Positions 43,212 to 63,735 of a stretch of 64,000 nt of DNA are shown one piece after another; position 1 is the stretch's first letter; the number at the start of each line of letters is the position of its first letter. A program made the translations under genes and the position numbers. Where the stretch lies: positions 4,007 to 68,006 of the forward strand of contig JAUQPL010000005.1 in assembly GCA_030550395.1 (NCBI GenBank), in the 5' to 3' direction. This DNA comes from Bacteroidota bacterium. GTDB taxonomy: Bacteria > Bacteroidota > Ignavibacteria > Kapaibacteriales > HRBIN21. The notes under the pieces are model-generated. The model made no database searches and was not told the origin of the DNA. It saw only the letters and a program-made list of their open reading frames with translations.

Positions 43212-43313
43212 GGGGACCCAGCCGACCGTGTCGCGCTGCCGGCAGACCGACCGTTGCTTCCTTCCGGACCTGGCGGGGTTAAGCCTGCGACAACCGCACG
43301 GGACTCGATCCCC
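43212..43313 (-). ncRNA. ffs: Signal recognition particle RNA, small bacterial type (4.5S)
   Basis: The minus strand carries the universal SRP domain IV apex GGTCCGGAAGGAAGCA (within 43254-43270). Outer pairing supports the ends: GGGGATC and the following bases pair with the 3' GGCTGGGTCCCC, and TGTCGC (43292-43287) pairs with GCGACA (43234-43229). The 102-nt transcript ends in CCCC followed by TTTTTG, consistent with termination. It binds Ffh to target membrane proteins. Confidence 0.93.
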
Positions 43314-47581: not shown

Positions 47582-47616
47582 AAAAAGAAAGGTGGCGGCT
47601 TCTGCGCGCCACCTTT
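47582..47616 (-). terminator. Intrinsic terminator of tRNA-fMet
   Basis: A 10-bp perfect stem (47588-47597 with 47607-47616, 9-base loop). On the minus strand it is followed by ctttttg. Confidence 0.9.
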
Positions 47617-47624
47617 TGCCTTCG

Positions 47625-47697
47625 TAGCGGGGGCAGGACTTGAACCTGCAACCTCCAGGTTATGAGCCTGGCGAGCTACCAATTGCTCCACCCCGCG
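47625..47697 (-). tRNA. Initiator tRNA-Met (CAT)
   Basis: Cloverleaf starting CGCGGGG with anticodon CAT in CCAGG-CTCATAA-CCTGG and T-arm GCAGG-TTCAAGT-CCTGC. Initiator marks are the unpaired 1:72 end and A11:U24 in the D-stem. Unusual: 1:72 is C:U rather than C:A, and the anticodon stem lacks the full GGG:CCC, having A29:U41. No CCA is encoded. A TTTG-N12-TAATTTTG promoter precedes it inside the 3' end of the GH57 gene. Confidence 0.93.
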
Positions 47698-47713: not shown

Positions 47714-47737
47714 CAAAATTACGGTGTTCGCGGCAAA
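47714..47737 (-). promoter_or_regulatory. Promoter of tRNA-fMet (TTTG-N12-TAATTTTG)
   Basis: Minus strand: TTTG (47734-47737), 12 bases, TAATTTTG (47714-47721), ending 16 bases before the tRNA. Confidence 0.6.
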
Positions 47738-61336: not shown

Positions 61337-63735
61337 TCCGCTTCACTCCGGATGAGGACTTGCCGTGCGCGGCTTCCATCGGCTGGCCCCACAATCCCGG
61401 CGGCCTCCAGCTCATCCATCAGGCGCGCTGCCCGTGAATAGCCAATCTTGAGCCGCCTCTGCAGCAACGAAACCGAACCCTGCTGATGGCGTACCACCAA
61501 TCGAGCGGCTTCAGCAAAGAGTGGATCGCGCCCCCCAGCCCCGCTTTCCCGTGTTGCTCCTTGCTCGGAAACAGAGGGAAGCCAATACGGCTCCTCACAG
61601 CCCGGCTGTTGAGCGATAAAGGCACAGACGGCCTCTACCTCCTCCATACTCACGTAGGCATTCTGTAACCGGATGGGCTTCGGTACTCCGCCAGGTAGAA
61701 AGAGCATGTCCCCATGACCGAGCAACTGCTCCGCTCCGGGCATGTCCAGAATCACCCGAGAATCAACTCGCGAGGCAACTTGATAGGCAATCCGTGCAGG
61801 AAAGTTCGCCTTGATGAGCCCGGTGAGGACATCCACCGAAGGACGCTGTGTGGCTACAAGCAGGTGAATCCCAACCGCCCGTGCCAGCTGGGCTAAACGG
61901 GTGATTGGCTCCTCCACCGCCCGAGCCGCCGTCAACATGAGATCGGCCAGTTCGTCAATGACAAGCACAATGTACGGTAGTGGACGGAAGCGGCTGTCTA
62001 ACTTGCCTTCCCGTATCCGTCGGTTGTAATCCACGATGTTCCGCTGCCCCGCCTGCGCCAAAAGGTCGTAACGGCGCTCCATCTCTAATTCCACCGCCTT
62101 CAGAACAACGACGGCTGAATCGGGCGTCGTCACAATTGCCTCTCGGATGTCCGGCGAGAGCGCCAGGAAATGGCGCTCTAACATCGCATAGGGGGTCAGC
62201 TCTACCTTCTTCGGATCAATGATGACCAGCTTCAGCTCCGAGGGACGCAGGCGGAAAAGGAGGGAGAGAATCATCGTGTTGATCCCCACACTCTTCCCCG
62301 AGCCTGTTGCCCCCGCAATCAGCAGGTGAGGCATGCGTGCCAGATCCGCACAGTAAACCTCGCCCGTAATAGTCTTGCCCAAACCCAGCGGCAAGAGGGC
62401 ATCGCTTTGCTGGAAGACCGGGGATTCCACAATGCTGCGGAACCGCACCAGTACCCGACGATGGTTCGGGATTTCTACCGCTATGGTTCCTCGCCCTGGC
62501 ACTGGCGCAATGATGCGCACCCCCGGGGCCTTCAACGCCAAGGCAATGTCATCGGCAAGACCCTCAATCTGACTGATCTTGACCCCAGCCGCCGGAACGA
62601 ACTCATACTGCGTCACGATAGGACCGGGGGTAACCGTAAGATTCTCAATCCCAATCCGGAACGTCTCCAACTTCTCTTGCAATAGGCGAGCATTCCGCCG
62701 CAGCTCCTCTTCATCCACCTCTAAAGCGTCTTCGCCCGGTAGCAGCAATCCTGCTGTCGGTAGCGTATACTCAGCCTGCTCGCCCGATGGCACTGTCAAT
62801 ACTTTTGCCCGTTCCGATGGGACCTCCACCGGAGGCTGCGACTTCGGAGCCCGTATATGCTGGGGATGCACAACCGGCTGCAGCACCATCGGTGAAGCAC
62901 CCTGCAGAAGGGCTTCTCCAGAAGAGGACTCCGTCACCGGCTGAGTGTACCCTCTTGATGATACTGCAATGCGCACAATGCGAGCTGGCTCCCATTTGTC
63001 CAGTTTCTCCGCATCCTCCCCTGAAGAACTTGCCGACGGTGCAGCAACCGGACGCTGTCGCCTCTGCTCCCACCTATCCCGCGTCCGAGCCCATAGAAGA
63101 CGCACCCACGATATGGCCCGTTCACTCAGGCGGGGGAACTCCACCAGCACGACCACTGCCGCCACCGCCATGGTCAGCAAAAGCGCCCCAGCTGTTCCGG
63201 CTAACTGTCGCAACACCGTACCAACGAATGCCCCAACCTGTCCACTCCACTCCAAGGGGAGTTCAGCAAGGGGGGGAATCCCGCGCAGTGCGCCCACAAA
63301 GACCGCAAGCAACAGCGCAATTCCTCCAACAGAAGCACTCCTTCGCCAAACAGCTACCGATACCATTCCCCGCTTGAACAGCTCCCACGCCCACCATCCC
63401 ATAAGCAGAGGCAGCGCAAGCGCCCAGTAACCAATTCCGACAACAATTGCCAGATGTGCCAGCACCGCCCCAAGTAAGCCCAACCAGTTCTGCGTCGTCT
63501 CCGCCTTGAGACGAGCCTCTGGATCGGCACGCAGAAGCCCGAGGATATCACCCCACCGAAGACTCACATTGGGCTGATCCTCCGGCGCATACGATAGAAA
63601 CGCCAGCAGAAGGCACACGGAACCCACCCCAAGAGCTAATGCCCACAGGTAGTGCCGCTGGCGGTCGCGCCTTGTACCCCTCCGATGGCTCCCCCGCTCC
63701 CGTTTCGGGAGCCCTTCCGAAGACAGCGGACGCAT
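61318..63735 (-). CDS. ftsK: DNA translocase FtsK/SpoIIIE
   Basis: An 805-residue septal DNA pump. Four membrane helices lie within residues ~25-190. A Pro/Ser-rich linker follows, then the motor: alpha/beta domains with GPIVTQYEFVPAAGVKISQI, Walker A IAGATGSGKSVGINTMI, IVLVIDELADLM, and HLLVATQRPSVDVLTGLIKA. A gamma winged-helix domain at the C-terminus (SVSLLQRRLKIGYSRAARLM) reads KOPS-like sites. The linker is short compared with E. coli. Start MRPLSS at 63735 is chosen over an upstream ATG at 63759. Confidence 0.95.
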   Translation of the reverse strand: MRPLSSEGLPKRERGSHRRGTRRDRQRHYLWALALGVGSVCLLLAFLSYAPEDQPNVSLRWGDILGLLRADPEARLKAETTQNWLGLLGAVLAHLAIVVGIGYWALALPLLMGWWAWELFKRGMVSVAVWRRSASVGGIALLLAVFVGALRGIPPLAELPLEWSGQVGAFVGTVLRQLAGTAGALLLTMAVAAVVVLVEFPRLSERAISWVRLLWARTRDRWEQRRQRPVAAPSASSSGEDAEKLDKWEPARIVRIAVSSRGYTQPVTESSSGEALLQGASPMVLQPVVHPQHIRAPKSQPPVEVPSERAKVLTVPSGEQAEYTLPTAGLLLPGEDALEVDEEELRRNARLLQEKLETFRIGIENLTVTPGPIVTQYEFVPAAGVKISQIEGLADDIALALKAPGVRIIAPVPGRGTIAVEIPNHRRVLVRFRSIVESPVFQQSDALLPLGLGKTITGEVYCADLARMPHLLIAGATGSGKSVGINTMILSLLFRLRPSELKLVIIDPKKVELTPYAMLERHFLALSPDIREAIVTTPDSAVVVLKAVELEMERRYDLLAQAGQRNIVDYNRRIREGKLDSRFRPLPYIVLVIDELADLMLTAARAVEEPITRLAQLARAVGIHLLVATQRPSVDVLTGLIKANFPARIAYQVASRVDSRVILDMPGAEQLLGHGDMLFLPGGVPKPIRLQNAYVSMEEVEAVCAFIAQQPGCEEPYWLPSVSEQGATRESGAGGRDPLFAEAARLVVRHQQGSVSLLQRRLKIGYSRAARLMDELEAAGIVGPADGSRARQVLIRSEADLEGIV

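Follow-up and report, generated by a model that had tools for sequence, protein, structure and literature searches.

The sole initiator tRNA found in a Bacteroidota-like genome combines an AU/GC/GC anticodon stem with the 1:72 mismatch of its order

The initiator tRNA gene in the window (the whole 64,000-nucleotide stretch of DNA that was analysed) is very probably the ordinary, sole and functional initiator of a Bacteroidota-like genus, since one of its two odd features is normal for its order and the other is present in many other bacteria. Its 1:72 end would be the mismatch normal for the order, and its anticodon stem would be the AU/GC/GC variant used by many bacteria, with both loop-proximal G:C pairs kept. 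The change from G29:C41 to A29:U41 would have been accompanied by one from U27:A43 to C27:G43, leaving the calculated stability of the arm nearly constant. The sequence of this tRNA, its status as a sole copy, its conservation in the genus and the wide taxonomic spread of its stem were observed directly, and we infer that it initiates with normal efficiency.

The tRNA-fMet gene (anticodon CAU, 73 nt, CCA not encoded) lies at 47625..47697 on the minus strand and reads, from 47697, CGCGGGG TG GAGC AATTGGTA GCTC G CCAGG CTCATAA CCTGG AGGTT GCAGG TTCAAGT CCTGC CCCCGCT A. Its acceptor stem (CGCGGGG/CCCCGCT) contains the formylation determinants G2:C71 and C3:G70, followed by the discriminator base A73, and C1 (47697) is mismatched with U72 (47626), giving the weak or unpaired 1:72 end of an initiator. 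The D stem has A11:U24, a further initiator feature. Below the loop CTCATAA, the anticodon stem consists of C27:G43, C28:G42, A29:U41, G30:C40 and G31:C39. A29 (47669) and its partner U41 (47657) thus replace G29:C41, and only two of the three consecutive G:C pairs that characterize initiators at 29-31:39-41 (3GC) are kept. Because the first pair is missing in many other bacterial initiators too, 3GC is to be regarded as typical of initiators and not as defining them. A sequence-only reading of this DNA had described the same anticodon stem and C1:U72 end, had placed U72, A29 and U41 at exactly these coordinates and had taken A11:U24 as the mark of an initiator; our base-by-base reading agrees on each point, and ARAGORN called the gene tRNA-Met(CAT). 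The Rfam RF00005 score was 65.8 bits.

Upstream of the gene on the minus strand, TAATTTTG (47714..47721) is conserved in an alignment of four genus members; it resembles the Bacteroidota -7 element TAnnTTTG, and we take it to be a putative promoter element. A scan for sigma-70 promoters upstream of the tRNA gave none. Just downstream, a hairpin like that of an intrinsic terminator, followed by a T run, is located at 47594..47613 (minus strand). Its longer stem folds at -19.6 kcal/mol, and the terminator scan found 1 such element versus 0.5 expected from shuffles. Elsewhere in the window, a bacterial small SRP RNA was detected at 43212-43310 (minus strand, 61.3 bits).

The anticodon CAT is common to initiator, elongator Met and Ile2 tRNAs, and the window gene might therefore be an elongator Met or Ile2 tRNA and no initiator at all. 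This has next to no likelihood, given the mismatched 1:72 end, A11:U24 and an identity of 88-94% to the initiators of the order. Moreover, a covariance search of the 1.94 Mb, 99.3% complete assembly yielded 47 tRNA genes, just three of which have CAT: the window initiator and two others whose C11:G24 and paired G1:C72-type ends identify them as separate genes of the elongator Met and Ile2 types. A pattern search for the standard 3GC initiator stem-loop found no match anywhere in this assembly, and the second initiator whose existence had earlier been considered did not turn up in the genome. Another explanation is that the variant arose through a mistake in sequencing or assembly, or that the gene is a degenerate copy next to a normal initiator, as the variant sites are single-base differences versus relatives. 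Three further genus assemblies, however, carry the same stem and C1:U72 in tRNAs that are identical to the window tRNA at 73/73 or 72/73 positions, so that the AU/GC/GC stem is fixed in all four assemblies of the genus that hold the region. The flanks of the gene have diverged among these four, save for TAATTTTG upstream. Sequencing error at 47626, 47669 or 47657, to which the variant might have been ascribed, is thereby ruled out; since the bases are identical in four assemblies, the stem change is paired on both sides and the search gave no second initiator, the error or degenerate-copy account keeps virtually no probability. Two other genus members, G002 and G005, are without the tRNA region. 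A real loss of the tRNA was considered for them and rejected in favour of an assembly gap, because the adjoining GH57 gene is missing from G002 as well and is cut short by a contig end in G005.

Because their 1:72 pair is weak, bacterial initiators avoid EF-Tu and peptidyl-tRNA hydrolase, and methionyl-tRNA formyltransferase (Fmt) can open the end. Outside the genus, 14 intact initiators of the order were compared; C1:U72 is present in 12 and C1:A72 in the other two. C1:U72 is thus the ordinary state of the window's order; it is most simply ancestral and no peculiarity of the window gene, contrary to the earlier view that it breaks a tight conservation. The order relatives with C1:U72 also share A11:U24 and near-identical acceptor and D arms with the window tRNA, from which they differ in having U27:A43 and G29:C41 (3GC). 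On these comparisons, C1:U72 deserves listing next to C1:A72 as a normal bacterial state.

Several initiator genes of related genomes were unusual in other ways. An initiator-like tRNA of one order member (L210:1498-1570, minus strand) has A1:C72, not C1:U72, together with a normal 3GC stem. In other related genomes the initiator gene is split by an insertion in the anticodon loop, which Rfam identified as a group I intron in L063:1501-2243, L217:1151-1535 (minus strand), L221:1501-1839 and L222:1501-1841; L223 and L224 have the same split appearance by ARAGORN. In another genome (L054 and L072; G014:C73:61987-62059 and 62350-62371), the 3' end of the initiator is repeated exactly over 22 bases at a distance of about 290 bases downstream; this copy might be a trace of the kind left by an integrated element.

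In contrast to the 1:72 end, the anticodon stem sets the genus apart from its order. The 14 order initiators compared above all have 3GC, which makes the A29:U41 stem a derived state on the branch to the window's genus. The comparison with relatives that had been suggested sustained one of the two supposed departures, the stem, and not the other, C1:U72. AU/GC/GC is rare within the window's own phylum: in a sample of 395 genomes, 361 matched the 3GC stem-loop and two matched the exact A29:U41 pattern. One is the window's own genome and the other G143, from the same class, which has the same combination of C27:G43 and C1:U72 with A29:U41. With G162 and G209, in which A29:U41 is accompanied by U38 and so escapes the pattern, the phylum total rises to at least 4/395. 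A29:U41 with U38 for A38 (loop CTCATAT) is seen in initiators of genus g128 in the same phylum (L211:1500-1572 and L212:1500-1572, both minus strand).

Beyond the phylum, we scanned 84,980 species, with one genome per species, for the AU/GC/GC stem and found it in at least 120 contigs of named genomes. The matches listed are mostly Alphaproteobacteria; Bacteroidales, Verrucomicrobiota, Planctomycetota, Lentisphaerae, Omnitrophica, Nitrospirae, Chloroflexota, Clostridia and one Mycoplasmataceae MAG are also among them. Intact initiators could be parsed in 110 of the 120 listed contigs, every one of them having both A11:U24 and A29:U41; 88 of these have C1:A72, five have C1:U72 and the rest show other combinations. 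The five listed matches joining C1:U72 to A29:U41 come from Planctomycetota (L090), Nitrospirae (L105), Prevotellaceae (L134), Omnitrophica (L161) and Clostridia (L170). When 20 of the AU/GC/GC genomes were tested by pattern for a 3GC initiator, none was found in 16, Agrobacterium (L085) and Azospirillum (L137) being two such cases. The alphaproteobacterial initiators (Agrobacterium, Bradyrhizobium, Pelagibacteraceae and others) share A29:U41, G30:C40, G31:C39 and A11:U24 with the window tRNA but mostly have C1:A72 and U27:A43 in place of its C1:U72 and C27:G43. One Hyphomonadaceae MAG contig holds two initiator-like stem-loops (L091:59-79 and 762-782), neither of which parses as an intact tRNA. 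The sequence-only reading had spoken of variant initiators in a few lineages and had taken both features as normally tightly conserved. This picture of an unusual tRNA does not survive, as the stem extends across many phyla and C1:U72 is joined to A29:U41 in no fewer than five named groups as well as in a further family of the class. AU/GC/GC has evolved on several occasions and is commonplace in large groups of bacteria, and 3GC should accordingly not be called near universal.

We also compared the stability of the arm. In the genus, where the loop-proximal pairs G30:C40 and G31:C39 are retained, G29:C41 was replaced by A29:U41 together with the replacement of U27:A43 by C27:G43. The calculated arm energy is -5.9 kcal/mol in the genus and -6.0 kcal/mol in the 3GC relatives, versus -4.5 kcal/mol for A29:U41 alone, indicating that arm stability is barely altered because C27:G43 offsets the loss at 29:41. 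AU/GC/GC initiators can do without such an offset, as most of the others listed keep U27:A43.

The overall sequence of the window tRNA resembles that of E. coli tRNA-fMet. The E. coli tRNA has A11:U24, G2:C71 and C3:G70 in common with it and differs in C1:A72 and 3GC (PMC7949028). The 3GC pairs have been described as highly conserved and as required in E. coli when the 30S complex gives way to the 70S complex (PMC7949028). Mycoplasma initiators with AU/GC/GU stems are documented in a passage of PMC10568206 that cites Ayyub et al. 2018; in these, an A:U pair replaces the first G:C pair as in the window tRNA, which, unlike them, keeps G31:C39. The genus shows no mycoplasma-type alteration of the partners: IF3 R131 (E. 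coli numbering) is R in 6/6 genus members, uS9 ends in SKR in all five members where uS9 was found, and the 3' end of the 16S rRNA is normal (GGCTGGATCACCTCCTTTCT). Changes in IF3 and in the 16S tail, which had been proposed from the window, were thus not borne out. It is in IF3 R131 and the uS9 SKR tail that Ayyub et al. in 2018 reportedly saw changes in the AU/GC/GU mycoplasmas, and the genus differs from them in both. Another study of unconventional initiators, Samhita et al. 2012, is cited in PMC10568206 too. Its authors are said to have attributed such initiators to Rhizobium and Mycoplasma and to have placed the main requirement on the middle G:C pair.

By contrast, the proposed change in the formyltransferase was seen. 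Fmt was found in every genome tested, and in all six genus members it carries an unusual replacement of Asn by Cys at residue 103 (P0001; L261:1501-2415, G000:C4:8816-9706; also L260, L264, L265, L266 and L267), within the motif FCVHPSLLP versus FN[ILV]H in eight aligned order or class relatives. In an alignment with solved structures of Fmt, E. coli 1FMT among them, Cys103 falls on the Asn that precedes the His of HxSLLP by two residues. This Asn is described as critical to the catalytic activity of FMT, ArnA and GART, and the hydrolase FDH has Ile at the position (PMC4388273). With a degenerate DNA pattern for F-C-x-H-x-S-L-L-P, which scores the Cys only and says nothing on Asn in other genomes, the sole Fmt match in 395 phylum genomes was the window's genome (G000); two other matches fall outside Fmt. 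Fmt sequences of the genus are 62-79% identical to each other and both Pfam domains are present in that of the window's genome, suggesting that Fmt is maintained; as His, Asp and SLLP are retained as well, it may still be active. Peptide deformylase was not found near fmt or in the genome stretches searched, which cover only part of the genome. With Asn replaced by Cys, the chemistry of initiation might likewise be different in the genus.

These observations raise the question of whether the stem change is tied to weakened formylation, such that a poorly formylating Cys-Fmt relaxes P-site selection and a weaker 3GC signature becomes tolerable or selected. Such a link is conceivable because low Fmt permits initiation with 3GC-mutant tRNA in E. 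coli (PMC7949028), and it would fit the catalytic role of the replaced Asn and the restriction of the Cys motif to the genus among the genomes compared. We nevertheless consider it unlikely. The two changes co-occur only once, on one branch, and G143, with the same tRNA variant, has the normal Asn; His, Asp, SLLP and the Pfam domains are kept, and the activity of Fmt is judged here from its sequence. In addition, AU/GC/GC occurs in many other lineages, the comparison of Fmt being one within the window's phylum. The wider proposal of a co-evolved and relaxed initiation system in the genus, with weak or altered formylation by Cys-Fmt and a sole initiator without full 3GC, is equally doubtful, and the stem and Fmt changes look like a single coincidence. 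We thus favour the reading of the window gene as an ordinary initiator, belonging to the already known AU/GC/GC kind, with the Fmt change as a modest lead. Should that change prove functional, the genus would offer a natural setting in which to test the trade-off between formylation and the 3GC check.
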